A stretch of DNA of 64,000 bases from Terebella lapidaria (Eukaryota > Annelida > Polychaeta > Terebellida > Terebellidae), in the NCBI GenBank assembly GCA_949152475.1, contig OX424564.1, positions 32,424,165 through 32,488,164 on the forward strand, in the 5' to 3' direction. Below, piece after piece: positions 1,911 to 46,424 of the stretch. Every line of letters begins with the position of its first letter. Position 1 is the stretch's first letter. The translations under genes were made by a program, and so were the position numbers. The notes beneath the pieces were generated by a model. The model saw only the letters and a list, made by a program, of their open reading frames with translations. It was not told where the DNA came from and searched no databases.

Positions 1911-2338
1911 GCTGATCAAGCAACTACTTTTCTCTCTTCTAAATCCTGAAATAGAAGTTTGACGTTTGGTAGGAATATGCCAAGTTATAACACCTGACCG
2001 AGTATACATACTTGCCTGACGGAGTTGGCATCATCTGCTGTTAATTACGTTCATGTTGTCATGTTTGAAAAGATGTCATATTGTTAGATTCTGCAGTATT
2101 TGTTAGCAGTTCATTAGAGGAAATTTAGTCACAGATTAAAACTCAAACAATCACAGAACTTCGGTGAATAACATTATCATTGATACCTGCTGTAGCCTGT
2201 GTCCTGAACGAATAATTTCACATTCTTCAATCTTCTCCCAGGTCTCTGCAGTTTACATATTTGTGGACCAGCTGTACTCGACGGAATTCACTAGGAATAC
2301 ACATAAAACTTTGGAATCATCCGCATCTTTGGCGACCA

Positions 2339-3651
2339 ATGGCAGACAACCCGACACATCAGAATCACCAACAGGTCTGGTGTCAAAAGTTTTGTGCTGA
2401 CATGTAACTTAATTTTGAATCTTTGAATCAATCTTGATATATTGCATATATTGTCATTTCACAGTCTAGCTTTGATAAATTTACTGGAATCAAAATTGCT
2501 CAATTCATGGTGGTGGATCTAGGGTTTGACTGAATCACTTTAGTTCAATGGGCTGAATGTGTGGCTGCATGGGCCCGTATGATTTTAGGTTCTGTGATAT
2601 TTATTAGTTCATTTTCAGGACTCAATCTTGGAAAGAATAGGCCTAGCTGTGAAAATCTTGAGACCCTCAAAGTGCTCAAGTTTTGATCGCTCGTGCATTT
2701 ATTGGACCCTATCCATAACTAGCCCCTCGGTTCGAAATAAATCAATTGACAATCTGATTGGTAATAAACAAAATGCTGAATATCAGATTGTCAGTTGGTT
2801 GTTTTCAGTCCGAGGGACTTTCCAAAACAAAGTTTCCATAACTAGGTCACCACCAACTCATTGTCTTTTTCACTGTCCATTCAGCAAAATGTTTATTCAC
2901 CAATGTGTATGTAATATGTACATTGTGTCTATGTTCATTGCAGTCCACAGCCTTGGCTCGATCTAGTGCCGTACAAAACCCACCGAGGCATCCACATGTA
3001 GATCCAGAAAAACGCAAGTTGATCCAACAACAGCTTGTTCTACTCCTGCATGCCGACAAGTTGCCAAAGGCGTGAGCAAACTGAAAATCGAGTTTGCAAT
3101 CTCCCCCATTGTCGAACATTCAAAAATGTCTTGAATCATATGACAACTTGCAGTGATGGGAGGTCCTGTGCAGGTGAGTGAAGCTGTTCTAGTCTCTGCA
3201 GTGCCAAGGTGTCTATTGGTATTACAAACCGATTCATCCTCCATTCTTTGATAAAATTTTAAATGATGGATGTACAACTAGGTGATTTTTTTTTCTGTCC
3301 TTAGTGGAACATTGTGTGTCTTCTAATCAAATCATTACGCACTGGAAAAACTGCACGCGACCTTCCTGTCCAGTTTGTTCACCTTTGAGATACCCTGTTG
3401 TTGACGGCCCCAGCAACCGACCTGACGGTAAGTGTTGAGTTCATGTTGCAAGATTTACTGGGGACACATGATTTTTAACATGTAATTATTCCAATGAGCA
3501 ATTCATCAACATTATGCAGATGTGAACGTGTGAAAATATAGTTGTGTCCCACGAACAAAATGATAATGATGCGCTCTTGTGTTGTACTCATGTATTTCTA
3601 TTGCTTACACTTGAAGTATAATATTTGTCCCCAGAAATAAATGAGGAATGA
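2339..3651 (+). pseudogene. TAZ1-only gene, copy A (frameshifted)
   Basis: Four exons match those of copy B: 2339-2374 ([12 protein letters not shown]), 2944-3173, 3305-3427 and 3635-3651. Exon 2 begins with a canonical CBP/p300 TAZ1 lead ([19 protein letters not shown]), closer to vertebrate CBP than copy B is. It then loses the first zinc-binding Cys and shifts frame by a 1-base insertion at about 3060-3070, reaching a TGA at once. Compared with copy B the exon also lacks three bases further on, so the frame is not restored. Exon 3 still has the third zinc site (HCVSS, HWKNC, CPVC) and exon 4 keeps the conserved short end, EE then TGA. Splice borders are intact. It is most likely a dead copy, although a truncated peptide could still be made. 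Confidence 0.75.
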
Positions 3652-5392
3652 TTTATACCAACATCAATCGTGCCTGTGGACATTCTTTCGTGGACATCTC
3701 CTTTCCCGGTGCTTATATCCTCAATGGCTGTGGCAGCTTCAAGAAAGAGCATGATCAAACTACAGCTTTGGATATCCTGTGTATGCAATGACACATTACT
3801 CATTCACTTTTTACTGTCAGTTTTGTCAAGTATACTGCACAATAGAAGTGTAAGCACTGTGTCGTGTTTTAGTTTGTACATCTATATAATTATCAAGTTG
3901 TCTCTGGGCAAGAATAGATCGCCTTCGTCATGCTTATGCCACCTTTATCACTTTCATATAGACTTCAAAGACTTTGTATTTACTCCATATAGACATTCAT
4001 ATAGACTTATGAATATAATGGAGAAATTTTGTTTCTCGTGAAGAAAAATTCACATACATGTAATTATAGAATATTGAACCTCAACAGCATTGGAAATTCG
4101 TTAGAAATCAACACCGTTGGAAATTCATCATAGTGCCTACGTAGTACTTACGGGGTATTATTAAACAGTACTTCAAGAGGTGTCAAAGCAGAACTGGCAT
4201 AAAGAACATCGTGCTAACCCCAAAATGTGAGGACTCTGAATGTATGAAAGCCATGAGAGTTTGATTGTTATATGATATACGAGTACATGTACATGTATGA
4301 CTGGAGCAGCATGTGGCATTGTCAAGACTGAGTGTCAGGTCAAACGAGTCCAATTCTTAGACGTTTGTATTGAAGAATAGTTTATCTAGTTTTTTTCCAG
4401 TGTGTTCACTGGTCATTTTCCGTGATTTCATTTGTATTGCTATGAAGGATAAGTTGATTTACACAACTATTTTTTTATGGGAGCACAGAACTGAGTCAGG
4501 GAATTTAGCAATCTAAGGGTCCTCATTTTCAAGTTTTATGGCAAGAACATCTCATTTTCATGTTCGAGTGTGGAAGCAATTATATCTGTCTGTCCGGTTT
4601 GTGCAATACATGTACTAGTGTCATCGAAGGATCTGTTATGACTATATCAAGGAGACTGTAGTATACATGTAGCTATTATAAGAATTTGTTATACTTATTG
4701 GCGACGTAGTACCTACATGTAATGTAGCCACTTCCTGACTAGAACATCTCACACCTATACTACACATATACTATACATATTTATACATATACATGTCACA
4801 TTAGCAATAGCATATATCTCAGTCCTATGAATTATACGTTTGTATTGTATGAATTTTTAACAAGGCAATACAATTCTCGATGAAATCTCATAGCAGTTCA
4901 AGCTAACAATACAATGTGGTTGATTTAACACATAGAAACAGGTATTACAGTTTTCTGGAAATATCTGGAAATAAAAAAGCAGCAAAAATATGTTGGTTTT
5001 TTTTGGCAAAATATATTTATCTCGGTATACAAATCTATATTTTACAGAGACAACAGTGGCTCGCAGCATACATAATATGTAGCACATGTAATTTTATTGA
5101 ACACTATTGCATGTGAACATGATAATGATACATTAATTGTACCTTATCTGAGTTTGTATGACAAAATGACGAATATAGCATAACATCTTAATTGGAACCC
5201 AGTCTCTTATTAGCTTTTCTCTGGGTTACAAATAATTAATTATAAACTGTATAAATATGCAAGAAATTCAATTCTTAAAATTCTTGATTTTTGTATCTTG
5301 TTTTGTTGTTGAAGAGATCTTGTATAACAAGGAGTATGATATACTCATTACAAATTATGTGATATATACGATGCATGTTCTTGTATTCACAC

Positions 5393-5398
5393 AATAAA
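5393..5398 (+). terminator. Possible polyadenylation signal, TAZ1 copy A
   Basis: AATAAA about 1.74 kb after the TAZ1 copy A stop. The same signal stands at 17585 in copy B, at a comparable distance once the DIRS element is subtracted. Conservation in both copies supports a role, but no transcript evidence is available. Confidence 0.35.
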
Positions 5399-5606
5399 TG
5401 CGTTATAAATAATCATCAGGGAAGTTTTGTGAATTTTATATGAACCGTACAATCAGCATCAAAACGAACAACAATAACCTGTATACATGTACATCCCAAA
5501 ACAATCAACAAATATCTTCAACGATACATGACGAAAATATATAGATTTTCTTCTGTCAAATTTATTTTTGCTAGGCCTCTTGTCTTTTTTCCACCGTTTT
5601 GACAAT

Positions 5607-7321
5607 GAATTGTGGACATATATAGGAAATGATCTGATGAATATTCTCGTCACCTCAAATTGGACCAGTGACGTTATTCTCAAGAACACGGGACAAAATG
5701 GCTAATATCCAAAATATAAAACACACTGTCCGGTAAATTTTTTAGTCTGGGCTAATTGTTTTTCTAATTCTGAACAATAAAATGGTGACCTTGATTTGAA
5801 TGGGTGGAAATTCATAAAATGAAGTCCGAGAATGAAAATCGAGAAATTGGCCAATATATATACCTAACTAGACATAAAAGCTGAGAGACTTTGTGGCATC
5901 CTCCAATTTTTCTTTTCTAGTTGTGAAACCAGACTAAATTAAACAGTACATATACCAGATTAGATTTAACAGTACATATACATACTCGTTGATATTGCAA
6001 CGAGCAATTGCTCGCTGGACAAAATTTAATGCCCACACTCTGATATTTGCCACCAGAGTGTATTTATTCAGTGTTTTTGGCTCCCATGATATTCTTCAGG
6101 TACTGTTTTCCAAATGTAGAATAACACCTTTTAGAGAATCCCCTATCATGGTAATGGTCTCATGGGTAACAAACCATGGAATTTCCAAGCCACTACAATC
6201 ACTTCATACCTTGGTACATGTACATGTATAATCGTAAATCTCGAATTTGATAGCAATGATTGATATCAAACACATCAAGTTGAGAGTACACTGTTAAATA
6301 TACATTTTCTGTTCATCGTATTTCAAGGCACATCTCAATAAGTATTAAACGTCATATACAGACATGACAGATACATGTTCAATTGCAAATTCCTACATCC
6401 ATAATTCAACCAGGCAATCACAGTGCTTTTTTTTTTTAGCTAAATGCAATTGACTGGCAAACCTCGGATGACCTTGAGTGTAAATCTACAGATAGACCTT
6501 GTATTACGTATTACGTACATACAAGTATTACATTTTTACTATAGATACAAAAAGAATCTTGTATGTGGTCGATCTGTTGGTGACCTTGAACTTGACCTCA
6601 AAATACCTCTATTGTTAAGTCGCAATATCATGTACGGTCTGAGTTTATCGTTCAGCTACAGCGCCCTTGGTGCTATATTTTCGTATTTTGATCAGAATTT
6701 CAGAAGAAAAATCAACTAAAATTCGGGAAATGTTATCTGACCCCAGAAGGACGGTAACCTAAAGAGACAGTAGAAATGGCTCGAAATGTGATATTGTGAA
6801 AGTAATTATAATGATTATACGTAATTATAAATGATGTAAATGAAAGTTGGAAATGAGAATGCTACATGGCACGAATAAAAAAAATTATAATTATTATAAC
6901 TGCCTAACTATATAGTGTTTATACTTGCAGCCTAGATAATGAAATTTATTTGTATGGATATTTCAATTAACATATATTTTGAAATGAAAAAACCTCCAGA
7001 CAGTATTAAAGACATGATGTACCTCATACAAATTTGATTTGATGCACTAGATTATCCCTTTGCACGCAGTGATATATACAGAAACAAATTACATATTACA
7101 TACAACAAGCAAGTATTTGTTCTCGGTGTCGTTCAGATTTATATACGAGTGATTATACTTGTACTAGTATCAGTCTGCCCCCCCCCCCCCCCCCCCCGAG
7201 ACCGTGTGACTGCCGCACTCCAATAAAGAATTTACAATGACTTTTCGGCAGGTAAAACCACGCGGGATTTCACAAAACCACGAGTTTGTTTGTAAACATC
7301 AGAGTTTGCTTCCCAGAAAGG
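5607..7321. other. Intergenic stretch between duplication copies
   Basis: AT-rich DNA without a supported gene. It contains a decayed fragment (about 6430-6620) of the TGACCTTGA-bearing element found at 29.4 and 42.2 kb, and a run of about 20 C at 7178-7197. Confidence 0.4.
6430..6620 (+). repeat. Decayed fragment of the TGACCTTGA element
   Basis: Two stretches, GATGACCTTGAGTGTAAAT near 6470 and GGTGACCTTGAACTTGACCT near 6580, match the internal part of the elements at 29401-30552 (near 30168 and 30302) in the same order. The ends are not recognisable, so this is an old partial copy. Confidence 0.5.
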
Positions 7322-7662: not shown

Positions 7663-8454
7663 TCGCTCAATAAATATAACAGTGGTGACTTTCAACACAA
7701 CCAGATTAATTTCCTAGTTGATATCTGGTGTTTATGCAACTAATGATATTTGATGTTTATCTGGTTTATACAACTTATTGATATCTACGGGTAATGTTTA
7801 TACAACTGAAATTTAATTGATAGATCTATCTGATGTTTACATCTGATTGATAGATCTATACATATGTACAACTAATTTATATCTGATATTTGCTGGTATG
7901 TTGTTGTGTCCCACATCCAATATAAATTTAAGTAGATGGTAATTACTCAAACTACATGTATGTTGAACAGTTGTCGATATTGATCAGTTCAACTGATTCA
8001 GTTCATTGTCATCTCTTGGCTCTCGGCTTGTAGATCTATACCAGCTTGACGAAGTTGCCATCTGCTGTCATGTTGTCATGTTGGAAAAGATATCAATTCA
8101 ACCTAAAACTAACTTCAATAGGGCCTACAATACATTATTAGATTATACAGTTTTGTTAGAGGAAACCAAGTTCATATTTTACAGAACATAAAATGGAATC
8201 TAGTTACTGATGTCTTTGTAAGTGGGAATCAACAAATTAACCTGAGCTCTGATGTTGAATTACCTTTATCAGTGTTACCTGCTTTACCATACCATGTTTA
8301 CCTGCTGAATAATAATTCCACATTCTTCACCCAGGTCTCAAAGACGGAGTATTCGCTCTTCGGAGTTTACATACTTGCGGGCCTGACCTCAAATTCACTG
8401 GGAATACAGATAGAACTTGGAATCATCCGCGCTTTCGGCTGGACGAGACGTCCA

Positions 8455-9317
8455 ATGGCAGACAACCCGACACATCAGAATCTTAACCAACAGGTCTGCT
8501 GCTTTCAAAAGTTATGTGCTGACATGAAACTTAGATTTGACTTTTTTAAATCAACTTCATCAAAGCACCTGTTGAATCTCCAATTTTGATGGGTTTTCAT
8601 ACCATCAGACATACATATTCCATTATTTTATGCCTGTGAACTGAGAAGGATACTATAAACTTGTGTTGTGCAGGATGTTCTATTACCCAGCTTAATGCTT
8701 ATGTAATGTATGTTCATTGCAGCCCGCAGTCTGGGCGCGACCTAGTGCCGTACAAAACCCAATGAGGCATCCAGATGCAGAAAAAGGCAGGTTGATACGA
8801 CAACAGCTTGTGCTTCTCGTGCATGCTGAGAAGTGTCGCAGGCGCGAGCAATCTGGTGACAATCGAGTCTGCAATCTCCCCCATTGTCAAACCATGAAAA
8901 ATGTCTTGAATCATATGGCGATTTGCCATGATGGGAGGTCCTGCACAGGTGAGTGAATCTGTTCTGTTCGAATTCATGCTTCATTCTTTGATAAGAGTTT
9001 AATCAGATGCATGTTAACGTTGAGCACGCATACAATTAATGTAGGTGATTTTCTTTCTGTCCACAGTGGTACATTGTGCGTCTTCTAGAAAAATTATCGC
9101 TCACTGGAGAAATTGCAGGCTTCGCCATTGTCCCGTTTGTTCACCATTGAGACCCCTCGGTGTTGACGGCCCCAGCAATCGACCTATTGGTAGGTTTAAA
9201 GTTCATGTTGCACTAGATTCACTAAGGATACATGACTGGTTAACATGATATAGGCACAATATGAAACACAATGAAATACCGGTATAATGTTTGTCTCCAG
9301 GAAAGCATGAGGAATGA
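8455..9317 (+). CDS. Free-standing TAZ1 zinc-finger protein (CBP/p300 TAZ1-like), 134 residues
   Basis: Exons 8455-8493, 8723-8948, 9067-9189 and 9301-9317 join in frame with GT-AG borders and encode 134 residues. After a 13-residue lead ([13 protein letters not shown]) and a linker, residues ~35-120 form a TAZ1 domain. All three HCCC zinc sites are present: HAEKC with C-NLPH-C; NHMAIC with GRSC and VVHC; HWRNC with CPVC. In CBP/p300, TAZ1 binds transactivation domains (HIF-1alpha, CITED2, STAT2, RelA). Here nothing follows but [12 protein letters not shown] and a stop, and copy A ends at the same place. KIX, bromodomain, HAT and TAZ2 are all absent. It could compete with CBP/p300 for activators (inference). 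An alternative is that it is a 5' or internal piece of a larger gene with an unseen exon 4 acceptor. The start ATG is the first in frame and is shared by both copies. Confidence 0.75.
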
Positions 9318-10225
9318 TTTATACCTACATCAACCATGCCCAGTGATTCAACATCATGGACATTCTTGCAAGGACATCTTTTTTCCAGTGATGATCCTCA
9401 AAGGCTGTGGCAGCTTCAAGAACATGTTCTTCATGATTTCCAGAAAGAGCATTATCAAACTGCAGATTCAAATATTCTCTTTGACATATACATGACATTG
9501 TATGCAATAACAGAACATTCATTCACTTCAAAATGTCAGGGTTATTTTTCAAGTACAATGAAAGCGGTGATGAAAGTGTATTCATTATATGCAACATATT
9601 TGCACATCAAGCACTGTAGTTGTGGGCCAGCATAGATCACAACATTCAAAGACTTTGTACTCACTCCATATAAACATCCTATATAGACTCATGAATTACA
9701 AAGAAACTTCGTTTTCCAAACAGATGAATTCACATTCAAAATAACAAACCTATCAAAAAAAACTTCTTGTTAAATAACGAAGTGATCTTATCAGATCGGA
9801 ACCACTTCAAGTGATGGATATCGATCATTGTTTCTACCAGTACTTATAAGAATTACTATACAGTACTTCAATAGATGTCGAAGCAGAACTGGTTAAAGCA
9901 CATTGTAATCAACTCCAAAATGTGAGAACTCTAAATGTATGAAAGCCATGACAGTTTTGTAAAATGATAAATAATATACTAGTACATGTATGATGTGGCA
10001 TTGTCCAGACTGAGTGTCAGGTCGAACGGAAATGTCTGAAGAGACAAGTACATAAGGAGTACACTCTATAAGCACTTGTACTGAAGAATAGTGAATCTAG
10101 TTTTTGTGTGTGTTCACAGTTTATTATCTGTGATTCCACTTGTATTGCTGCGAAGGATAAGTTGATTTACACAACTATCGTTTTGGGGAAGTACGGAACT
10201 GAATTAGTGAGGTTACCGAGCAAAG
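9318..10225 (+). other. Probable 3' UTR of the TAZ1 gene
   Basis: This stretch aligns with 3652-4500 in copy A but no reading frame is kept between the two copies. A 99-codon open frame starting at 9336 in this copy is disrupted in copy A. With an AATAAA conserved at 5393 and 17585, the stretch is best read as 3' UTR, cut by the DIRS insertion. Confidence 0.4.
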
Positions 10226-10227
10226 AG

Positions 10228-10477
10228 GAAGTTTTAACTTGTTTAAAACCAGTATTTATTACATACCTACCTCTATAATAAACTCTTTGGGTAATCTTAC
10301 CTTGGCATTCAAAGAAGAGGAGAGAGAAATGAATGTCACAAGAATTTTCTCAAAATTCCTGACATCCATCTCGAACTCGAAATTGAAGGAAATTACTCTC
10401 ACACATCTCAGATTCCCCGCGGTGTAGATGTGACGTCACACCGGTCATATGATTGACCTTAACCGCCATTAATTTGC
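10228..10477 (+). repeat. DIRS left inverted terminal repeat
   Basis: Matches the complement of 16566-16791 from CTCTATAATAAACTCTTTGG through CCATTAATTTG. The outermost bases (10228-10270) differ from those of the right end, as is usual in DIRS elements. Confidence 0.85.
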
Positions 10478-10519
10478 CCACCTGGTTAAGGCAGGGGAGG
10501 CGGGAGGGAGAATAATCGT

Positions 10520-10619
10520 GTTTATTATAGAGGTAGGTATGTAATAAATACTGGTTTTAAACAAGTTAAAACTTCCTATTTATTGCCATACCACTACCTC
10601 TATAATAAACTCTTTGGGT
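10520..10619. repeat. DIRS internal complementary region
   Basis: 10520-10575 is the reverse complement of the left outer end (10228-10283) and 10576-10619 is the reverse complement of the right outer end (about 16748-16791). In the DIRS family this region is thought to template joining of the ends into a circle. Confidence 0.85.
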
Positions 10620-10959
10620 TATATCAGAATAACCAAAGGAGGTGGGTTTAACCCTCTCCCGGGAATTTCATCACCGATGTGTGAGAGTAGGAAATATCCA
10701 TTGAAAGTAGTAAATATTGTGTTTTACTTTTAAATTATAATTTTAAGTCGAAAATACATATTTACAGGATATTTACAACTATACCATAATACACGCCTGA
10801 ATTACCTTCAGATGCATGGAGACGAGCAGGGGCTCTGCAGAGGTGACTTTCCTCTTGCAGAAGAACAAAAATTTCCCTCGCCAAAGAAGAGGAGCAACTC
10901 CCCTGGGAGTCGACCTCAGGTGCATCTGTACAGAGGCGTGCTGATCTATTTACAGGTAT

Positions 10960-11990
10960 CTACAGCTGGACTACACGCTCCGCCGCCACCAGTCGTCCAA
11001 GCTGGAGGCCGGAGTCATCCTCCCAAGCTAACTCCCTGAGATAGAAAGAAGTGAATGTGTTATGAGATTTCCAGGTACAGGCAGACATGACATCATTCAG
11101 AGACACTTTATTTGTAAAGGCAAGTGAAGCCGCGAGAGCCCTCACATCATGCGCTTTGACTCTGAAACCTGTGGATTTTTTCGCCTGTGACTTTTCATAG
11201 CAAAATCTAACACACTTCTTGATCCAAGATGAGATCGTAGCAGGACGGATATCATTTGGAAAATCCTTAAGATAGGACACGAAAAGCAAACGCTTGCCGA
11301 GATGCAGCTCACGCGTACGATTAACGTAGATGCGGAGGGCTCGCACGGGACAAAGCTTCGCGTCTTCCTCCAGGCCCGGCCCCAGAGAAGGAGTCAGGGC
11401 GGGAATGGAAAAGCTCAATAATGGCGTACCTGCTAATTGAGTTTTGGCCAGAAAGGAGGGAATGACTCCGAGGAGAACCGAGGAGCCATCCGACTTCCAC
11501 TTAACTTTGGAAAAGGACAGAGCGTGAAGCTCACTCCGTCGCTTCCCGGAAGCCAGAGCCAAAAGGAAGACCGTCTTAAACGTCAGCAACTTTAGTGAGG
11601 CCCGCTCAAGGGGTTCGAACGGATCTTTTCTTAAGACGTTGAGAACAAGCGATAGATCCCACTCAGGAACCGGGTTCCTAGCTTTCGGTCTTTCGATCTC
11701 GAAACTATTAATCAACGCAGTCAAACCTTGATCATGACCAAAATCGATCCCAAGTTTGGGTTTTAGAGTCTTCGCGATAGCCGTACGGTAACCCGCGATC
11801 GTGGATGGAGCTCGCCCTTCATTGAACTTTTCGAGAAGAAATTCGGAAATTAGGGGAGCATCGACTCTGAAAGGACTAACCTTCCGGCGACGACACCAAG
11901 CACAGAAGGAAGTCCACTTCGATTGGTAGACTGCCAAAGAAGATTTTCGATTTGATCGGGCGATCCTAGCGGACACCTCCCTTGAAAATC
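10960..11990 (-). CDS. DIRS tyrosine recombinase region
   Basis: The C-terminal part of the 10960-16317 open frame reads as a tyrosine recombinase: GKRRSELHAL (box I Arg), KAHDVRALAAS (H-x-x-R) and TSFYLREL with the candidate catalytic Tyr, in the right order. In DIRS elements this enzyme inserts the circular DNA copy in place of a DDE integrase. The limits given are approximate. Confidence 0.85.
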
Positions 11991-14126
11991 CCTTCTTTCG
12001 GAAACATCGCTCGACAATATCCAGGCATGAAGCTTCAGACTTGCGGGAGCCTGATGAAACATGCTGGAGCGAGGTTGTTTGAGGAGGTCCCACCGATCCG
12101 GAAGCTGACGAGGGAAGTCTACTATCAACTCCAGAAGGTCCGGGAACCACGACCTCTGCGGTAGACACGGAGCAATCAGCAGGAGGCGACACTGGTGAGT
12201 CCGAAACTTGGCGATCACCTTGTCCAACAACACCGCTGGGGGGTAAGCATACGCGTACATGCCCTCCCAGGACGTCGACATCGCATCCACTGACATGGCC
12301 GTGGGATCGGGAATGGGAGACACAAACGAAGGAAGTTTGTGGTTCCACCGGGTCGCAAACAAATCGACCATCGGCGTGCCCCATAGGCCGCAGAGAGATT
12401 GGAATACCCTGGGGGCAAGACTCCACTCCATGGCCTGGACCTGGCCCCTCCGGGAGAGGCGGTCCGCCCAAACATTCATATGACCAGGGATATGCCTCGC
12501 GAAAAGCGAAATACCCCGGTCGTGACACCAGAGCAGGAGGTCGATAGCGGCCTGGCACAGCGACTGGGACTTCGTACCGCCCTGCTTGTTGATGTAAGCG
12601 ACAACGGTGGAGTTGTCGGTGGCCACCAACACAGCCTGATTGAGGAAATGTGTTTCCCAATGCCTGAGAGCCAAGAACACGGCCTCCAGTTCCAACAGGT
12701 TTATGTGCCATTCCTGCTGAGACGAAGACCAGGTGCCCGAGACCTCGCTGTCGTCCCAGTGAGCGCCCCAGCCGTCCATACTGGCATCCGTAAATACGTG
12801 CCTGGATGGAAGCGGCCGGCGGAATGACGACCCTCGGAGCAGATTGACGGGATCCAGCCACCATTGCAGATGGGAAACGACTTCCGGAGAGACCTGCACG
12901 AGCTGGGATCTGTCTCCCGTGACCTGGGACCATTGAGAGTGTAGATGCCGCTGAATAGGCCGCATGTGCAGGCGGCCCAACGGAACTAACTTTTCCGTGG
13001 ACGCCAGCATCCCGAGAAGGGACTGCCAGCGTCTGGCCGTCTGTGGAATGCGACGAAGGAAGCCTTCTGACAGCACGGATAATTTTGACTGACGATCCAG
13101 CGTCGGCAACACAGTCTCTGAGGTAGTCTGATAACGATACCCCAAGAAGACGAAGTCTCGACGCGGTGACAAGTCGGACTTTTTTTGGTTGATTTTGAAC
13201 CCCATCCGTGAGCATAGATTTACCACAAACTGTGCTTGGACGATCAGCGTTTCGCGACAATGGTGCCGGATTAGCCAATCGTCGAGATATTGGTGGATAA
13301 AAATCCCCCGCTTGTGGGCGAGAATCTGGACTTCCCGAGCCACCATGGTGAAAATCCACGGCGCTGTCGATAATCCGAACGGGAGCGCCCGAAACTGCCA
13401 TACGCGGCCGAGATAGAGAAATCTCAGGTATTTGCGAACTGCAGGTTTCATTGGAATATGGAAATAGGCATCTTTGAGATCGATCGTTACCACCCACGAA
13501 TCGCGAGGCATGACTGAACGAACTTGCTCCGGCGTTTCCATGGAAAACGTCGGCACTATTAAGAACTTGTTCAACGGAGAAAGATCTATCACTGGTCTCC
13601 AACCCCCCGACGCTTTGGGAACCACAAACAACACGCTGTAGAACCCGGGAGTGTCCCCGGGAGCAGGTTCTATCGCTTGTTTCTCGATCATCGCCGTTAT
13701 CTCCTCGTGGAGAACACGGCGGCGTTCTGGATCGTTTGGAAGAGTGAAACCCCTTGGGACGGGCGATAACGGTGGCAATTTCTCGAATTTCAGGCCGAAT
13801 CCTCGACGGAGCGTCGAGACGACCCAGGGGCAAGCCCCGAGCCGCTCCCACTCTTTCCAAAACAGAATTAAACGAGCTCCTACGGGCTCGTCTGAGGAAG
13901 GAATATCGACCGAAACGAGCTGACCATGCAGCTCTTCTCGACACTCGAGCGAAGGATCCGGCCCGGAATCCGAAGCTATACGTACCCGGTTTCTTTTCCC
14001 CTGCGGGCTTGGGAGCCTCTCCGCGTCCTCGGCCTCGGCCACGACCACGGTCTCCTCGGGTGCTGCCGGCAGAGGCCCCGCGAAAGGGCAACCCTGAGGC
14101 CCTGCCTCTCGCTCTACCACGGCCAC
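11850..14126 (-). CDS. DIRS reverse transcriptase / RNase H
   Basis: A 758-codon open frame overlaps the other long frame of the element. Its central part carries reverse transcriptase motifs (VIDLSPLNKF, TIDLKDAYFHIPM, LPFGLSTAPWIF, QYLDDWLI), followed by RNase H-like motifs (VFTDASMDGWGAHW, LLELEAVFLAL, VATDNSTVVAYI). Overlapping frames for the polymerase and recombinase are typical of DIRS elements. Confidence 0.9.
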   Translation of the reverse strand: MAVVEREAGPQGCPFAGPLPAAPEETVVVAEAEDAERLPSPQGKRNRVRIASDSGPDPSLECREELHGQLVSVDIPSSDEPVGARLILFWKEWERLGACPWVVSTLRRGFGLKFEKLPPLSPVPRGFTLPNDPERRRVLHEEITAMIEKQAIEPAPGDTPGFYSVLFVVPKASGGWRPVIDLSPLNKFLIVPTFSMETPEQVRSVMPRDSWVVTIDLKDAYFHIPMKPAVRKYLRFLYLGRVWQFRALPFGLSTAPWIFTMVAREVQILAHKRGIFIHQYLDDWLIRHHCRETLIVQAQFVVNLCSRMGFKINQKKSDLSPRRDFVFLGYRYQTTSETVLPTLDRQSKLSVLSEGFLRRIPQTARRWQSLLGMLASTEKLVPLGRLHMRPIQRHLHSQWSQVTGDRSQLVQVSPEVVSHLQWWLDPVNLLRGSSFRRPLPSRHVFTDASMDGWGAHWDDSEVSGTWSSSQQEWHINLLELEAVFLALRHWETHFLNQAVLVATDNSTVVAYINKQGGTKSQSLCQAAIDLLLWCHDRGISLFARHIPGHMNVWADRLSRRGQVQAMEWSLAPRVFQSLCGLWGTPMVDLFATRWNHKLPSFVSPIPDPTAMSVDAMSTSWEGMYAYAYPPAVLLDKVIAKFRTHQCRLLLIAPCLPQRSWFPDLLELIVDFPRQLPDRWDLLKQPRSSMFHQAPASLKLHAWILSSDVSERRDFQGRCPLGSPDQIENLLWQSTNRSGLPSVLGVVAGRLVLSESMLP

Positions 14127-16317
14127 GAGTCGGCTGTTGCTGAGGCTGAGACTGCTGAACTGCAGACTGGGGCTTCTTAAAGGCCGAAACCATCTGTTGT
14201 GTGAGGCGTTCCAGAGACTTCGACTGGCTCAGGAGGGCATTGGAAGTAGAGGACTTCGCGGCCTTCTCGTCGGCCTCCTTCTTCACCTCCCGCAACTCCG
14301 CAGAACGGTCAGGGAGTAGAAGTGAAGTAGGGGCTCCGGAAGAGGGGATAACGGGGTGGAGAACTCTCATGTCTGTCATGAGCTGGTCCGGAACCTCGAA
14401 CTTGAGGGATGAGAGGAAGGCGTCACGCCGCCACAACTCGGACACCCAGAGTGAGTGGGAGTCCAGGGCCACCTTGTCACCCACACCTTTGCCAATGGAG
14501 GTGACCAATGAAGCGCAGCTCAATAAGGCTTCTGCCAAATCATCCCGGTCGACGTCAGGGTTGTCCAGGACCTGGTCACGGCACTGAAGAATGGCCCGTC
14601 TCGTAGCCATCGACAGCCAGTCCATGGCCGAATCCGTGGCCAGCCCCACTCGAAACGTGTGCTGCAGCTCCGCCAAGGCCGCCCATGGGATCTCCACGGC
14701 CTTAGGCTCCTTGAAAAAGGCGTAATGGGGGTGATGCCTCCTCAAAGCTGTAGGCTTGTCGTCCAACTCCGACGACGTATAGTAGTCGTTGACAGACGGG
14801 CGAGCAGGATACGCGCCAATCGCCGACTTGTTGGACCTGATGGTCTCGTCCATGCGCTCCTGCATGGAGCCGCGAACTCCCTGTGACAGAGGGAACCGTA
14901 AGGCGTCCTTCGACGGCCGGGGGTGCTCTATCTCAGAAGAGATCATCGAACGAGCCACCTTCTTGACTGGGGCCGGAGCATGCTCTTCGCGCCACAAACC
15001 CGGGAGGACCCTCTTCACAAAATCCAACTTCTCCCCCCAAGAGAGAGGGTCGTCGGACTCGGGCTGGTCCGCCTCCTGGTCCGGGTCCGCCTTACGCTTT
15101 CGCGGAAGCGTGAGGCCTGACGGGCCAGGTAACGGCTGGTCAGCCGACTGAGAGACCTGTAGGGAAGGTTCCTCATCTGAAGACGGCTCTTCCCTAGGCA
15201 GAGGGGAAGACGGGGGCGGTGGCGGCTGTGGAGGCGTGAACCTCGCCAGAAACTGCTGCCACTGGCCTAACATCTCTTCCCGAAAAGACTGAAGCTCGCC
15301 CCTAAGGCGCTGCTCTGACGTCGTGGAAGAGCTCCCCTGGACAGGAACACTGGACGGCTCCGACGCACGGGAAGACCCTTGGTCCGCCAACTGGGCGAAG
15401 GACAACATACCCTGGCTGGAGGCGACGAAACCGGAGGGCAGGGCCGTAAGCGGGGAATCGTCCTTGATATCCTCGGCGATCTGAAACACACAGGGCGAAT
15501 CAGAAAAAGGAAACTGTGGAAACCGTGGAGACATGGAAACTCCAGGAACCCATGGGTTTGGACGGCTCATGGCCCTTGGCTCCCGGCCCCTACTGGCCAC
15601 GGCTCCGGTAGCCACGGCCTGGGGTCCAGTAACCGACGGGAAATCGGGTGCCGGCGGCCGTATCACTGGCGACACGGGCCCGGACCGAAATCCGCCCTGG
15701 CTATGGGGTTGAAACCCAGCTCCGGGGGCAGGTGCCCGACCCGGAGGGGGAAACAACACTCTCTGTCCAGAGGGATCCCGGGCGCAGGGAACCGTCGTGA
15801 GCCCGACGGAACCGGCAGACCCCGAAACCACACTCGGACACTGAAACCCAGGTCGTTCAGCCAGAGAAGCATGAGAACGAGGGGCCAGTAGAGAGGGAGC
15901 CAAAAGTGAGCCACACAAACCCGTAGGTTGTGGGGAAGTTAGGGTGCCGAGAGCCGAACGCGCGGCTCCCGGGACCCGTACCTGGCTGAAAGAAAATGAC
16001 AATGATAAATCAAAACTTACAGCACAAACAGCATTGGTTAACTGCAAATCTAAACGCCGCTTGCGTTCCTCAGACGCCTTGGGACGCGGCCTGGCGCTAT
16101 CAGAATCTGACGGGGAAGGGGGAGTAGGGCAACCAGCAAACCTGCGGGCCTGAATCTCCCGTAAGCCTTGAAGACAGAGTTTCCACTCGTCGATGGACCA
16201 ATCCGCGCATAACTCACAGGTGGCTGAAGGACGGCAATAAACAGTGTCCCTACACTGCCAGCAGGCGTTATGAGCCTCCCACTTAGGAAGGTAGTGTTTG
16301 CAAACGATGCACTTCAT
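14000..16317 (-). CDS. DIRS gag-like region
   Basis: The N-terminal part of the 10960-16317 open frame begins with a Cys-rich zinc-binding-like cluster (CIVCKH, CWQC, CELC within the first 40 residues). A Pro/Ser-rich stretch, a mid-section of gag character and an Arg/Gly-rich tail near residue 720 follow. This fits the ORF1 protein of DIRS elements. The lower limit is approximate. Confidence 0.7.
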
Positions 16318-16565
16318 ATCTGAAACATATCAAACATCGAAGTACAAACGGGCGATAATGGGGGAAGGAAAGGGGCCTGGGGAGGCTTTACCATTTCCTC
16401 CCAAAAAAAATCGCAAATCACTAACTCTAAGCTAGTCTAACAACGAAAGAACGATCTACTGAAGAAAAGCTGTGCAAAGAACAGCCTAAAGACGATCGTA
16501 GACGTGAAGAAATTCGACTTTGAATGCCGAAAGCAAGACTTGCTGCACATCCAACAATGGAGGAG

Positions 16566-16791
16566 CAAATTAATGGCGGTTAAGGTCAATCATATGACCG
16601 GTGTGACGTCACATCTACACCGCGGGGAATCTGAGATGTGTGAGAGTAATTTCCTTCAATTTCGAGTTCGAGATGGATGTCAGGAATTTTGAGAAAATTC
16701 TTGTGACATTCATTTCTCTCTCCTCTTCTTTGAATGCCAAGGTAAGATTACCCAAAGAGTTTATTATAGAGGTAGTGGTATGGCAATAAAT
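16566..16791 (-). repeat. DIRS right inverted terminal repeat
   Basis: Reverse complement of most of the left terminal repeat. It ends GGCAATAAAT at 16791, directly before duplication copy B sequence resumes with GGTCATTTTAAG. Confidence 0.85.
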
Positions 16792-17584
16792 GGTCATTTT
16801 AAGATTTTCTGGCAAGAATACTAGTATTCTATTTTCATGTGTGCGTGTAGAAGCGATCATAACTGTGCTGTTTGTGCTGATTTTGGTATCATTAAAGGGC
16901 AGTAACCAAGCTTTCAATCAAAATGTACATGGATTTATGATTACTGGTATTATAAAAAGAGGTGATATAGCAATTATAAGAACTTGTTATACCCAGAACT
17001 TATTTGCTATTTCCAGATTTGAATATTTCATGTCTATGTACTGTACATGTTATATAATATCACAGTAGCGTATATCTCCGGCTTATGGAGTACATGCATG
17101 TTTGTATTTTATAAATTTTACATTAGGTGGTTTCGATGAAATTTCATCAATATGCCCTAACACTATAGTAGCAAACATAGAGGTTCTTTGCCAAAATATA
17201 TTTATTATGGTATATAATCTATATTTTACAAAGACACACATTTTTGCTTTGCAGCATACATATGTAGCACCTATGATTACGTTGAACACTATTGCATGTA
17301 ACAACTGGATATCCTACATTAAAATTGTGCCTTAGCTCAATTTGTCTGAAATTGTGACAAATGGAGCATAACATTTAACAATATTGACTAAAACCCACAG
17401 TCTCTTACGGGTTCTCTCTGGGTTACAAATCATAATGTATAAACTGTATAAACATGCAAGAAATTCTAAGTGTATATTGATTTTGTACCTTGTGTTGTTG
17501 TTGAACAGATCTAGTATGACAAGGAGTATGATATACTCATTATAAATTATGTGATATATTGAATGCATGTTCATGTCTTCACAC

Positions 17585-17590
17585 AATAAA
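17585..17590 (+). terminator. Possible polyadenylation signal, TAZ1 copy B
   Basis: AATAAA conserved with 5393 in copy A. If used, the transcript would have to cross the DIRS element. Confidence 0.3.
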
Positions 17591-17751
17591 TGCATTATAA
17601 ATAATCATCAGGTTTCGTACACAATTTAGTCGGATCAGTTTTGTGAATTGCATATGAACCATACAATTTAATAATAGCAAAACAACAAACAACAATAATC
17701 TGTATACATCCCAAAACAACAAACAAAATACATTATTCTATATGATACATG

Positions 17752-19286
17752 TCAAAAATATCTAGATTTCCCTCTGTCAGATTTATTTTTGCTAGGTCTT
17801 TTGTCTTTTTTCCACCGTTTTTGACTGTGAGGGCTTGGATCTTTTTCAGATGGTAGTTCTCCGTCCTCTAGGTCACCAACATTACTGTCGTCTTCATCAG
17901 CCTCGGCTGGTCTTCCCCGCTTCGTCGCAAATTTTTTCGCCATGGTTCCAACGAGTGTTGTGTACCTGAAATTTCATGCATTCATGAGAGTTTTTTCTTA
18001 TTCTCATTCACGCCACATTAATGTATTACATATTGACTTTATGCACTGTTGAATAAATTTGACTTGACTTGAGTTATCAAGTATATATTATAGTGAGGTT
18101 ATTGTTGAAGAACAATTAACATTATCAATTAGGTACTATGGAATAAAATCCAGTTTGTTTTGGTACTCTTGTGATAAATTTGACTTCCTTTCTAAATTTC
18201 AACCTCACATTCACTCATTTACAATACGAGACAAACATTTTTTGATTCAACATATTTTGAACCAGTACATATCAAAACATGTACGTACATTACATACAAG
18301 TTTATGTACAACTCTATAGAGTTGTGCATGGAGTTCTACTATGTGATAAATTTATCACATGGGAGTCTTCACTCGTCAAGGCTGCGAAAAAAAATGCGAT
18401 CAGAGTTTCCCAAACCCACCTTGCCGCCATCTCGTCATCATCCACACCGATTTCTTTTTCTCGTCGCTCTGCTTCCACCAAACTGGACTCTTGGTCTTGG
18501 GCAAGCATCAGTTTCTGTACAGAGAAATTCAACAAAAATTCTTATCTGCCAAAAAATCTGAGACATGGTGAAAATTGAATATAAATACAAATACAGGTTG
18601 TAATTTAATAATAAAAGTATAAATTGCTTTCCCAGAATATGACCAAACCTATTCTTTGCTTGTCTCATTATGTATTTATGGCTATAGGTACACAACAGAA
18701 TAGAGTAATGTGACTGATTATAGAACTCTTTATCATACCTGTTACCTGATGATCATGATGGTCTTACCTCTATTTCTGGATTGAATCCCTTGAAGGACAT
18801 TCGCCCAAACCGTAAACCTTCACAGAAAACATAACTAGGCTCTATCACAAATTTGCTCCTGCAGAAATAGAGATTAACACAACATGGCTCTGAGAACACG
18901 GCACACACACACATAACAAAATAATGTTTGGTCAGAATCAACATTACCACAAATAGAATAATGTAAGAATGGGAATTTGGGAACATATAACCATGTAGAT
19001 CTACACTATTAAAATGATATCATAATTTTCTCAACAAATATGTATATGTATGAATCAAAAAGGTAAATTCCATATTTCCATTAAGGAAACGTTTTATTCA
19101 ATACACGTTTTAATAACGTTTTATTTAATACACGTGTTAGGGTCTTGACGCTAGAGTCCGTCACTTAGCTTACTGTTTCTCTGCCAATTCTGGGACGTCT
19201 AGCTGCCAATGTTCATCGTCGATATGTCGTTTCTGCTCTGCAATATATTCCTCTTTCTGGACTCGCATGGCACTTCGCTGCATGAA
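17752..19286 (-). CDS. MPHOSPH6: M-phase phosphoprotein 6 (exosome cofactor), first exon not found
   Basis: Minus-strand exons 19174-19286, 18768-18858, 18420-18514 and 17752-17965 join in frame with GT-AG borders. They read FMQRSAMRVQKEEYI..EEH-like DDEHWQLDVPEL, then FVIEPSYVFCEGLRFGRMSF with KGFNPEIE, then KLMLAQDQES..EIGVDDDEMAAR, then YTTLVGTMAKKFATKR. Each block matches human MPP6 in order (FMQRG, EEHWYLDLPEL, CEDLLYGRMSFRGFNPEVEKLML, DEEMARRYETLVGTIGKKFARKR). MPP6 binds the nuclear exosome with RRP6 and MTR4 and helps 5.8S rRNA maturation. The C-terminus is acidic and then Lys-rich (KKDKRPSKNK). The short first exon, expected to encode about 17 residues with an LSKNLLRMK-like sequence, was not found upstream. 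The gene is convergent with the TAZ1 gene. Confidence 0.85.
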
Positions 19287-24567: not shown

Positions 24568-26830
24568 ATGGTTACAGAACTGGGAGTTATGCCAGAGATT
24601 GGCCAAGCCGTGGAAGAGATGGATTGGACGTGAGCAAACTGCTAATATTTCATGCTATGAGCACTGCTTATTATCAGAAACATCTTGAATAAAGATGCAG
24701 TAAAAAAACTCTTTGAGATTGAGGAAGCCTAACACTACATGTATCTTACTGAAAAGTACTGTTACTCTAAATTATACACCAATATACTGTAAAACGACTA
24801 ATTCTGGCAGACAATTCTCTTGGCGGATTGGTGGTAGGGGAAAGACTGCCAAATTAAATCATCCGCCGAATTAACTAGAGATATGTTAAGAAATATAATT
24901 ATGTGGTTTTGAAATCGCCAAATTAAATCTCCGTCAAACAACGTGGAGCTCATAACTGCCAAATTTGATAGCCACCAAAATTAGTCTTTTTACAGTAGTA
25001 AGATGTAGACAGACCTTTGAATAATAGTTTATTATAAGAACCATTCTGTATTTGACAGTCTGCCGACGGACATCCAGGCAGAGGCCATTCCTATGATCCT
25101 CGGAGGCGGAGACGTCTTAATGGTCAGCTGAAAAAAAATAGTTTTAATTGTTGTTGCTCAAAAAAGCTCCAAATTGTTGTCGTTCAAAAAGTTAAAAATT
25201 GTTTTTGCTCAAAAAGCTTGGTTTAAAAATGGTTTTAGTTGTTGCTATTAAAATAATGTAAACATTTGTAACTGAACATTTTTCACTTTTCACAAAAGTG
25301 GTTTGTACAAAGTACCACATGTACGGATCTTTCTGAATTAATTTTTTTTTATAAATAATAGCCTTCATTTAGAGATCCTAAACATGCAAGAAAACTTGTA
25401 TTAATAATCTTATTTACATGTACATGTAGTATATATATCTTTCAGGCTGCTGAGACCGGAAGTGGAAAAACTGGGGTGAGATTACAGAATTTGCTACTAC
25501 AGTTATAAGCTATGGCTTTGACAGTGTTCAAGTTAGCAATGATCATGTCATCTTACCCCTGTTCGCAAATTCCGTCACGATCGGATCTTTATTCACAAAA
25601 GTTGTAAAACTTTTGTTTTCTTTCTAGGCGTTCTGCATCCCGATCATTCAGATTGTCTGTGAAACGCTCAAAGATCTACAAGAAGGAAAAGGCGCAAGGG
25701 GCAAGAAGGGTGGCGGGGGCGGGAAGGCCGTATGTAAGTAGTTGATATTTCAATCATGTTTGCCCTTTAAATTAATGATGCATGTGGTCTGCTTACTCTT
25801 GGGTCTCTAATTTCTAATTTCTCTAATTTCAGCCAGCAAAACATGGAAGATGAATGTATTTGACCGAGGAGATGCTATGGGTTAGTACCGGAGAGTTTGC
25901 ACATGTCGTTGGAATTTTGAACAGAAGTTTACGGAGGGAACTGCCTCTTGAAAAATTATATGACATTTTCATGCTCTTCGTTATTAAAAGTAGATCCATA
26001 GAATGCTCAAACTAAATTCAAATAGAGTGCAGCATTCAAATCTTATCACTGTTGTGTACCGGTATTCTGTTGCCATGGTTACAGCTATAGACACGGAGGA
26101 AGGCTTGCTCTGTCAGAGTCGAGACCCAAAAGGCTGGCACGGAACTAGGGCTAACAAGGGCGTCACCGGCGAAGGTCCGTGAATATTCATATCTTTATTG
26201 AATAATTAATGACTATTTGATATGCTATTCATGTGAAATATTGTGGCTTCATGGAAACAATTGAAAGTTTGAAATGTTAGCTGCTTCTTTGAGTTTATGA
26301 GAGAAATCGTTGAATTGATATATGAATTCATGATAAACTTCCCATAAACCTGTACAAAACTAGAATATGGTAAAAATCCAAATTTAATGGTCTAAATTTA
26401 TTAAATTCTCCCCCTCCCCCCCCCCCCCCCCCCCCCCCCCCCTACCAGGCAAGTACTATTACGAGGCGACCGTGACGGACGAGGGATTATGTCGTGTTGG
26501 TTGGTCAACACTGAATGCGACGCTAGATGTTGGCACGGACAAGGAAAGCTTTGGATTCGGCGGCACCGGGAAAAAATCCTACAACAAACAGTTTGACACG
26601 TATGGCGAGGTGAGTGTAGGGACCATAAAAAAAATCGAGATATTGCTGAAGATTATCGTCAGCCGTTTTAGAGGGATGGAGATCTTGAAATTGAACAAGA
26701 AACAATCACCGAATCAGCCGTTCAAATCAACAAATATGTAACGGTTCATATGACTTGTCAGTGCATTGTTCATGTTCAATTTGAACATTTGTTCATAACT
26801 ACAATTGAAATGCCCTTATGGTTTTGTCTG

Positions 26831-41800: not shown

Positions 41801-44800
41801 TACTGAAGGGTGAATACACGGTCCGTGCGATTCGTCAACATAACATGGACAAGGCCATCATCTTCTGTCGAACCAAGATAGACTGCGATAACATGGAGAA
41901 ATATCTCAACCAGCATGGCGGAGGTATGTCATTCTTAACCAGTCATAATTTGTAAGTGGCAAAGGAAATCTTCATCTACTATCCAATATTATTAGAGTTT
42001 TTATGCCCTTGAACCATGGCATTAAACATGTTAAGGTACATGGTACATGCTTCACTTTGGGGGTATTGAACTCTTAAATACCTTCAATGAATGTTTTTCA
42101 TCTTGAAACCGTAACGGATATTGTGAAAAAGACATATCGTAAATATGACTGGATATACTTGATTTTTAGGTTACCGGACCTTTGGTCCGATAACCTATTG
42201 GCATGGCGTTGCGTCCGTCCGTCCGTCCGTCCGTCCGTCCGTCCGTCCGTCCGTCCGTCCGTCCGTCCGTCCGTCCGTCCGTCCGTCCGGCGTTAACATT
42301 TTTATCTTTAAAGTTAACGATCGAATCTTTCTGAAATTTTGCACAAAAATGCCTAAAAATATTTTGAGAAGGAGGTATTTTTTTGTTTTTTGATTTTCGC
42401 ATTTTTTTCAAAATGGCGGCCGTTTTTGTCGAAAAACGCTCAATTTTGGACATTGACGGCCATTTTCTCAAAAACTGTCTGATCAGTTTTGAGTTTTTGG
42501 TTTCAAAAGATTCCCCTCATATACCTCTGTGATATGTATAAGTTTGGTTGCCCTAAATCTGCCGGTTTCTGTGTGGCGGCCATTTTGAATTTTTGGCGGG
42601 TCGGCGAAAAAAAATTTTTTCGCCCCAAATCGCATTACTATCCATTTTGGGCCATTTCTAGGGCAAAAAAAATTTTTCACCCTTTGAAAAAAATTTTGGA
42701 CTTAGAAAATTTTCGGCACTTTTTCCCTTCATAATGGGAGCTGTCCGGACTGTACTCATAGAACGCTTGAAGATAGAGCTTAGAAATTGGCACTTTCAAA
42801 TGGGAAGTCATATATGGCGACTTGTGTGGTGACCTTGAATTTGACCTTGGATGACCTTGAAAGGTCAAAACAGCCATTTTTGGGTCGAAAAACGCTCAAA
42901 TTTGCACCTGGTCTGTATTTTCTCAAAAACTGTCTGATCAGTTTTGAGATTTTTTCTTAAAAAGATTCCTCTTATATACCTCTGTGACGTGTATAAGTTT
43001 TGTTCCCCTTGAATCGCCGATCTCAGTGTGGCGGCCATTTTGAATTTTTGACGAGTCGGCGAAAAAAAAATTTTTCGCCCCAAATAACATTACTATCCAT
43101 TTTGGGCCATTTCTAGGCAAAAAAAAATTTTCACCCTTTGAAAAAAATTTTGGACTTGGAAAATTTTCGGCACTTTTTTCCTTCATAATGGGAGCTGTCA
43201 GGACTGTACTCATAGAACGCTTGAAGATAGAGCTTAGAAATTGGCACTTTCAAATGGGAAGTCATATATGGCGACTTGTGTGGTGACCTTGAATTTGACC
43301 TTCGATGACCTTGAAAGGTCAAAACAGCCATTTTGGGGTCAAAAAATGCCCAGATTTGCCTTTGTAGATGAAATGCTTGCAGATAGAGCTCATGTTTGCA
43401 TTATGAACATATAGGAAGACATATATGGCACAACTAATGATGACCTTGAACTTGACGTCAGATGACCTTGAGTGCCAAATGTCTGACTTGGAATGTGTAA
43501 ATTGACCTGAGCGGCCTAAACGATTCCACCCAACATATAGAATATCAAATGCCGCACACATACATGTAATGGTTACATCGAGGTTCATACGGATGACCTT
43601 GATTGGTAAATCCCAAGGTCATATGTTTACACTGCGAACCTTGATTGGTAAATCTCAAGGTCTGTTACCTGCCAATGCTGCCATGGCCAAACCAAAATTG
43701 TCCGGTAACCTATCTTAGCCTTTGGGCTAATTTTTTATTATAAAAAGCAAAGTAGTGTCCTGATTCTTAAATGTTTTAACAGTTTTATTGTCTGGGAGTT
43801 TGTGTAGTTTATGTTTAGTCATTATGCTAAAAAATAATCACAAATCTTACAGCAAATTTGTCGTCTGTATGACTGATGTTGAATAACATTTGCACATGAC
43901 AGGTCGTAACAAGAACAAGATGTTTTCATGTGTGTGTCTCCATGGTGACAGAAAGCCGCAGGAAAGGAAAGCCAACCTCGAGAGCTTCAAAGTTTGTACA
44001 ATTATAATGGCTATAAAAATTAATGATATTGAATTTAAAAAGGGTGATTTGACTAATCAGCTTGAAAGCCAGTGCATTGTACATATTTTGAATCTTTCTG
44101 CCAGCGTGGTGAAGTCAAATTCTTGATCTGCACGGACGTCGCAGCTCGTGGAATCGATGTAGCTGGCCTACCGTTTGGTTAGTGAACTAAACACATTCAT
44201 TGCTAGATTCTTACTAGCTTCGCATAAGTTCCTACTTTTTACTTGATGAAAGGTCAAGAATATATAATTTTATGGCCATATTTTCAGTGATAAATGTGAC
44301 GTTACCGGACGAGAAACAGAATTACGTCCACAGAATCGGTAGAGTCGGTCGCGCTGAGAGGTAAGTTTTGATGCAGCAAAAATTGTACTCGCGTATCAGT
44401 TTGTATAGTGAATATTTAGCACATTGTGTCCCCATTTAGTGCACAATCTCCTAATATATAACTCATCGTTTCGTACTGTAGGATGGGTCTTGCAGTCAGC
44501 TTCAGCTCAACAGTCAAAGAAAAGGCAAGTATAAACTTTAGTATCACGGTATAAATTGCATAATTTTCCCTGTAATGTATGGTTTTCATGTCTTGCCCTT
44601 GGCCGAATTTTCAGAAAAATAAAATCTTTAAAAATTTCATAAGACACAAGAATTGCCAACATCTTTAATATTTCATAGGATACAAAAATCAACTTCTCAC
44701 TGACATTCGGTGCCATCCTGTCTTTACTGTATTTAGAAAATACATTCTTTATTATGTTCTCGGACAGGTTTGGTATCACTCGAACTGCAGTAACCGAGGG

Positions 44801-45634: not shown

Positions 45635-46103
45635 CAAACCGTGTCAATTTACTCATCATACTGTGTTCCAACAAAATGCTGTGCAGAGTTATCTCAGCCT
45701 ACTTACTTACATATATGGCATAGTCTACCTAACAGTGGCAATGATATATATAACTCACATCATACCGGTATGACATGTTTCATGTTCAATGTTCCAAAAC
45801 TACCTACGATTTGTGAGTTTTTGCTCATATATACTCCATATTACGCCAGTTGTACTACATGTGTTTATGTTTTTCTTGGGTTTTACATGTATATGCGAAC
45901 ATCTATCATTTAAAATCTGATGCTGAGTTCAGAATATAATGTACTGAGATGATTTGCCACTATAGTTAGCAAAAACAAGGGAGTTTGGAATACTTATTGC
46001 GTTCAGCGAGTTAAATCGGTCAGTACGTTGGTAAGTTTGAGTGATATACATGTATGTTTAAATCTTTTTTGTTGTTGATTCCCTGCTTGTTGAATGCAAC
46101 TGG

Positions 46104-46109
46104 AATAAA
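46104..46109 (+). terminator. Probable DDX1 polyadenylation signal
   Basis: AATAAA 470 bases after the DDX1 stop, before the convergent carboxypeptidase gene. Confidence 0.5.
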
Positions 46110-46263
46110 TCGCATTGTTGAGAGCTGTTTTGAATATTTTGACTCGCAAAAAAAAAATAAATAAAAACCAAATGAGGGCCTCATTCCTTATGGATATGTG
46201 TGCAAATAAAATGTCCCAAATGATGAAACTAGATGACAAAGAAATACTTAATTTTCGAGGTAG

Positions 46264-46269
46264 TTTATT
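46264..46269 (-). terminator. Probable polyadenylation signal of the minus-strand carboxypeptidase
   Basis: TTTATT on the plus strand, AATAAA on the minus strand, about 100 bases past the stop at 46372-46374. It lies just beyond the 77-base tandem duplication. Confidence 0.5.
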
Positions 46270-46270
46270 C

Positions 46271-46424
46271 GGTTGCGAATCGTTCACAAGTAGCTCAAGA
46301 GCTGTAAGGTTCATCGTTGAGGAATTTCTCAAAAATGATGTACCCTCGGTTGCGAATCGTTCACAAGTAGCTCAAGAGCTGTAAGGTTCATCGTTGAGGA
46401 ATTTCTCAAAAATGATGTACCCTC
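46271..46424. repeat. 77-bp tandem duplication of the carboxypeptidase gene end
   Basis: 46271-46347 and 46348-46424 are near-identical. The unit covers the last coding bases, the stop and the first bases of 3' UTR of the minus-strand gene. The inner copy is the one in frame; the outer copy has become 3' UTR. Confidence 0.85.

Follow-up and report, generated by a model that had tools for sequence, protein, structure and literature searches.

A tandem pair of partial CBP duplicates in the annelid Terebella lapidaria includes a predicted gene for a TAZ1 domain alone

The window analyzed here, a 64,000-nucleotide stretch of the Terebella lapidaria genome, carries two tandem copies of a short TAZ1-coding segment on its plus strand, and the second of these (copy 2) holds an intact predicted gene. 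Its four predicted exons (8455-8493, 8723-8948, 9067-9189 and 9301-9317) splice to 405 bp running from ATG to TGA, or 134 codons plus the stop. Translation of this splice bore out the four-exon, one-frame, 134-residue chain proposed in a preliminary description of the DNA, and the span given there, 8455-9317, was exact. Exon 1 provides 13 codons from the ATG, and no CBP counterpart was found for it; exon 2 encodes a linker, the first zinc site and a portion of the second; exon 3 encodes the TAZ1 remainder (zinc sites 2 and 3) plus a brief tail; and exon 4 supplies the final codons and the TGA. Each of the three introns begins with GT and ends with AG; the donor of exon 1 (CAG|GTCTGC) is weak.

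In a Pfam search of the 134-residue protein, zf-TAZ was the sole family to exceed its cut-off (65.7 bits against 25). A search of PDB returned 11 sequences at E <= 0.001, with the TAZ1 domains of p300 and CBP as the best matches (E 1.5e-36 for p300 TAZ1). All 12 zinc ligands are present (H47, C51, C63, C68, H77, C81, C87, C92, H101, C105, C110 and C113), in the ligand scheme of TAZ1 structures and in a register verified against the mouse CBP chain. The protein therefore possesses one feature of the KAT3 family, a TAZ1 with three HCCC sites, and by Pfam lacks the others, namely the HAT (KAT11), KIX, bromodomain and ZZ domains as well as TAZ2, its TAZ stretch being single. The earlier claim of all twelve TAZ1 ligands and nothing else thus agrees with both the Pfam search and the ligand check.

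Next, we searched the 761.6 Mb assembly (438 contigs) for the source of this domain. A full-length CBP gene, whose presence elsewhere the preliminary description had proposed to check, lies on the minus strand of a different contig, C2, at about 11.272-11.287 Mb, and comprises start, TAZ1, KIX, HAT and TAZ2 exons. Both KIX matches and all four HAT_KAT11 matches in the genome fall on C2. Scoring of the best candidates gave no KIX or HAT match at E <= 0.001 on C11, the contig of the window, nor a second such locus. The genome-wide Pfam search for TAZ yielded three matches, including TAZ2 on C2 (11274338-11274553), and a protein search yielded 11, of which seven correspond to the two copies and CBP; the other four were weak (E 0.4-1.0) and were dropped as candidates for further TAZ genes.

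The CBP TAZ1 is split over two C2 exons, 11283611-11283377 and 11283169-11283059, which match copy 2 exons 2 and 3, respectively. The boundary phases are common to CBP and the window copies, with a phase-0 boundary on the left and phase-1 boundaries in the middle and on the right; both boundaries of exon 3 are accordingly phase 1, as in its CBP counterpart. Because CBP introns and their phases are retained, the window gene is a DNA-level partial duplicate of CBP, and a retrocopy is ruled out on the same grounds. Compared with CBP/p300 (KAT3), copy 2 shares the 12 ligands and the intron phases but is without KIX, bromodomain, HAT, ZZ and TAZ2, and has a first exon unmatched in CBP. The annelid's own CBP agrees with mouse CBP at 80 of 89 TAZ1 positions, suggesting that most changes occurred on the side of the duplicates. 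Over the aligned TAZ1, residues equal to the own CBP number 60/88 in copy 2 and 72/86 in copy 1, with dN and dS to CBP of 0.18 and 1.44 for copy 2 and of 0.104 and 1.03 for copy 1.

The two terminal exons were compared with CBP separately. No homology to the CBP 5' region was detected for the exon 1 region of either copy, the best local alignment scoring 24 in both, when 100 shuffled versions of the copy 2 stretch averaged 22.9 and reached 30; we consequently rejected the proposal that exon 1 is a remnant of the CBP 5' part. The only genome matches of a 201-base stretch around exon 1 were the stretch itself and its tandem copy. Exon 4, at 17 bases a very short stretch for any comparison, agrees with the next CBP exon at 9/17 bases in copy 2 and 10/17 in copy 1, and 190 and 32 of 2000 shuffles, respectively, scored as well.

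Copy 1 has equivalent exons at 2339-2374, 2944-3173, 3305-3427 and 3635-3651, delineated by joining and translation. A one-base length change near 3060 breaks the frame of its exon 2 and leads to a stop inside TAZ1. The earlier observation that the stop sits at the same place in a diverged second copy therefore holds in part: the equivalent exon 4 stop is there, but the frame of copy 1 ends earlier and never reaches it. The frameshift may be genuine or may reflect a misassembly. Chains of blastn matches place the tandem duplication unit, with approximate ends, at 2051-5600 for copy 1 and at 8068-17821 for copy 2, both on the plus strand, the latter being enlarged by a DIRS-like insertion. This retroelement, at about 10211-16793 (ends taken from the blastn breaks), has split the copy 2 unit in its 3' part and contains, on the minus strand, an open frame of 1789 residues (10960-16329), in which reverse-transcriptase-like and tyrosine-recombinase-like stretches were recognized by eye and no Pfam family matched at E 0.01. 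Immediately beyond the copy 1 unit lies a repeat of ~108 bp (5604-5709) with 27 matching places in the 50 kb around the CBP gene, some in arrays; it is possibly linked to the movement of the segment, or merely common. Elsewhere in the window are an exon with a PDZ match (13-411), an SPRY exon (26388-26741) resembling that of DDX1, and a frame at 58531-58842 with a borderline, ASXL-like HARE-HTH match (24.9 bits, cut-off 25.9).

We then evaluated the signs of selection on the reading frames by comparing the two copies, using as noncoding blocks the 5' flank, introns 2 and 3, and the 3' flank; intron 1 was excluded because its lengths differ greatly. Noncoding difference ranged from 17% at the loosest gap cost to 29% at the stiffest, compared with 16-17.5% for the exons, so that under loose gap costs exons and noncoding DNA differ overall to about the same extent. 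Frameshifting gaps behaved differently. Across five gap costs, the noncoding blocks contained 51, 37, 31, 27 and 20 such gaps in 1038-1091 aligned bases, and the exons contained 3 in 395 at the loosest cost and 1 in 399 at the other four (Fisher P for the exon deficit 3.4e-5, 7.0e-5, 4.3e-4, 1.4e-3 and 0.012, respectively). Since frameshifting gaps are rarer in the exons than in the flanks, the frames were protected against them over a large part of the period that followed the tandem duplication. Exon 1 is likewise conserved between the copies, with 36/36 aligned bases identical plus one 3-base gap (P about 0.001 against the 17% background difference). In simulations of neutral evolution of copy 2, an open frame with all 12 ligands was kept in fractions of 0.019, 0.003, 0.00025 and 0 of 4000 runs at 0.10, 0.15, 0.20 and 0.30 substitutions per site, respectively, the true branch length being not known.

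Codon-level evidence was less decisive. A three-sequence codon model over 88 TAZ1 codons gave omega values of 0.07 for the CBP-plus-stem branch, 0.38 for copy 2 and 0.82 for the short branch of copy 1. Fixing omega at 1 cost 2.97 for copy 2 (P 0.085), 0.01 for copy 1 (P 0.92) and 5.71 for both (P 0.057), and neutrality is thus not rejected at 0.05 in any of the three cases; the signal for constraint on copy 2 is suggestive. Between the copies, NG86 estimates in TAZ1 were dN 0.175 and dS 0.434, and this dN is close to the noncoding distance obtained with loose gaps (0.17; 0.21-0.29 with stiffer gaps). Our reading of these values is that the frames were probably maintained during most of the period after duplication, that amino-acid constraint probably relaxed after the tandem duplication, and that copy 1 either broke late or was misassembled. 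Taken as a whole, the comparison gives signs that selection has kept the gene intact.

The most serious alternative is that both partial duplicates are now pseudogenes, copy 1 having lost its frame and copy 2 being intact by luck or through a recent loss of function. It would account for the copy 1 frameshift, the proximity of the tandem dN to the loose-gap noncoding distance and the codon-test P values above 0.05, and it is consistent with the finding that no AATAAA or ATTAAA, the canonical poly-A signals, occurs from the copy 2 stop to 10240 (about 920 bases). Against it stand the exon deficit of frameshifting gaps, the conservation of exon 1, and a copy 2 that is without a nonsense codon and retains its full ligand set. 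Despite these points selection on copy 2 could have ended recently, and we regard a pseudogene pair as a rather unlikely but serious contender.

To relate copy 2 to known TAZ1 complexes, we compiled contact and core positions from the RelA-TAZ1 (PMC3760798) and HIF-TAZ1 (PMC6851107) papers, a residue numbered Lys366 in the source being taken as 365. On this partial, self-chosen list of 24 non-ligand positions, copy 2 keeps 19/24, compared with 29/53 other non-ligand positions (Fisher P 0.046), and copy 1 keeps 21/24, compared with 40/53 (P 0.36). In one deep pocket described in this literature, Ile353, Leu357, Ile414, His417, Trp418, Cys426 and Val428 are kept in copy 2 and Gln413 is replaced by Lys. 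The RelA paper (PMC3760798) also names a basic pair just past TAZ1, Lys438 and Arg439, which is missing in both copies; adding the pair changes the counts to 19/26 for copy 2 (P 0.145) and 21/26 for copy 1 (P 0.78), and the apparent enrichment of contact positions in copy 2 is correspondingly fragile. The count of Lys plus Arg is 16 in copy 2 and 14 in CBP. As for possible partners, the Pfam models for the HIF CTAD and CITED had no match in the genome, a result that does not show absence, and the HIF-1 model had one match below cut-off (E 0.08), where a motif scan found no HIF-like motif.

These comparisons also bear on the possibility that copy 2 encodes a functional TAZ1 that is not a decoy, either an adaptor bringing a new partner to activators or a domain that has shifted to other ligands. 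Copy 2 has its own N- and C-terminal tails, 24 of the 53 non-contact positions are changed or missing, and the basic pair past TAZ1 is lost, all of which would fit such a role; so would the limited effect of RNAi against C. elegans CBP-3, which is reported to affect only some of the CBP-1-responsive promoters (PMC10320766). However, both tails are short and without a Pfam match, and the listed groove positions are for the most part retained; we consider a non-decoy function unlikely. That the exons are part of a longer gene with unrecognized further exons is very improbable: the exon 1 frame of copy 2 is open for 112 codons upstream, and the gene ends given here are predictions from DNA that RNA is needed to fix, but four of the five inter-copy gaps immediately upstream have lengths not divisible by three, an in-frame stop occurs 42 codons upstream in copy 1, the exon 4 stop is equivalent in both copies, C11 carries no KIX or HAT match, and the sole upstream frame among nine scanned in the window is the PDZ exon ending at 411.

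We tentatively favor the explanation that the locus is an old partial duplicate of CBP whose copy 2 yields a free TAZ1 competing with CBP, which is the most likely of the readings considered and one that we hold with slightly less than even confidence. The two TAZ1 exons, intron boundaries included, would have been copied as a genomic segment from CBP to another large contig, where this segment would have acquired an initial exon carrying a start codon and come to end in a very short last exon; the tandem duplication of the TAZ1 segment would have followed later. Copy 2 would then give rise to a 134-residue free TAZ1 with a predicted fold around three zincs, whose ligands would be the same disordered acidic activation domains as those of the TAZ1 in CBP itself; HIF, STAT and CITED-type proteins are the candidate activators named in the preliminary description. 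Because copy 2 retains the greater part of the listed groove positions and a catalytic part is missing, it is plausible that the free domain binds such activation domains and competes with CBP, and a soluble TAZ1 without HAT, KIX and bromodomain might damp their activity. Expression, folding, binding and competition of the copy 2 product are steps that we infer from the sequence. A switch based on the CH1/TAZ1 of p300 is reported to respond to HIF-1alpha and CITED2 in E. coli (PMC4245239). Points that weigh against this explanation are the frameshift in copy 1, the codon-test P values above 0.05, the weak exon 1 donor, the missing poly-A signal and the negative HIF CTAD and CITED searches.

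Several known proteins invite comparison. The plant BTB-TAZ proteins (BT1-BT5) possess a TAZ domain without a HAT, plus a BTB domain, which by Pfam is absent from the 134-residue protein. Planarians have CBP paralogues. The name 'smed-cbp' occurs in PMC10212710. The closest parallel is C. elegans CBP-3, which is reported to contain the first zinc finger domain only, to have no HAT and to be a likely product of partial duplication (PMC10320766). There, cbp-2 and cbp-3 are described as partial duplicates of cbp-1 formerly named pseudogenes, and cbp-3 as a transcribed gene whose RNAi alters promoter activity (PMC10320766). The statement in the preliminary description that no stand-alone TAZ1 gene family was known to be described in animals is thus not supported: the kind is already known from C. 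elegans, and the annelid case is an addition to it. None of the literature titles and abstract openings among the matches listed names an annelid TAZ1-only gene.

As in the nematode, the annelid gene is a partial duplicate of the local CBP, and its predicted exon chain contains the first CBP zinc finger alone. In contrast to cbp-2 and cbp-3, which lie within 160 kb of cbp-1 (PMC10320766), the annelid copies are on another contig than CBP; and whereas the C. elegans genes are backed by RNA and RNAi evidence, the annelid gene is known here from DNA alone. In a comparison with the annelid's own CBP, the dS of the copies is only 1.0-1.4, less than would be expected had they split off before nematodes and annelids diverged, and an origin independent of the nematode case therefore appears probable. 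TAZ1 is a crowded docking hub at which activators and inhibitors such as CITED2 compete, and such competition would have a natural titrator in a gene that encodes just the hub. As a second case next to cbp-3, apparently of independent origin, the annelid gene would suggest that excision of TAZ1 from CBP can repeatedly give rise to a regulator; if silent, the gene would be an ordinary partial duplicate. It is conceivable, if doubtful, that a dedicated free-TAZ1 inhibitor of CBP-dependent transcription arose in annelids independently of nematodes, as a dominant-negative hub domain encoded in the genome, kept by selection and tuned at its surface.

Two other contigs of the assembly contained sequences of mitochondrial character. 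The 15,973 bp contig C438 resembles a mitochondrial genome, with protein genes identified by eye on one strand (ND4L, ND4, ND1, ND3, ND2, COX1, COX2, COX3, ND6, CYTB, ATP6 and ND5) in the usual annelid order; judged by COX1 conservation, table 5 gives a more sensible translation of its COX1 than table 9. An echinoderm origin of the DNA was rejected on this code and gene order. On contig C417, positions 44633-46450 hold another COX1-like sequence, which contains in-frame TGA codons and is possibly a mitochondrial insertion or the DNA of another organism.
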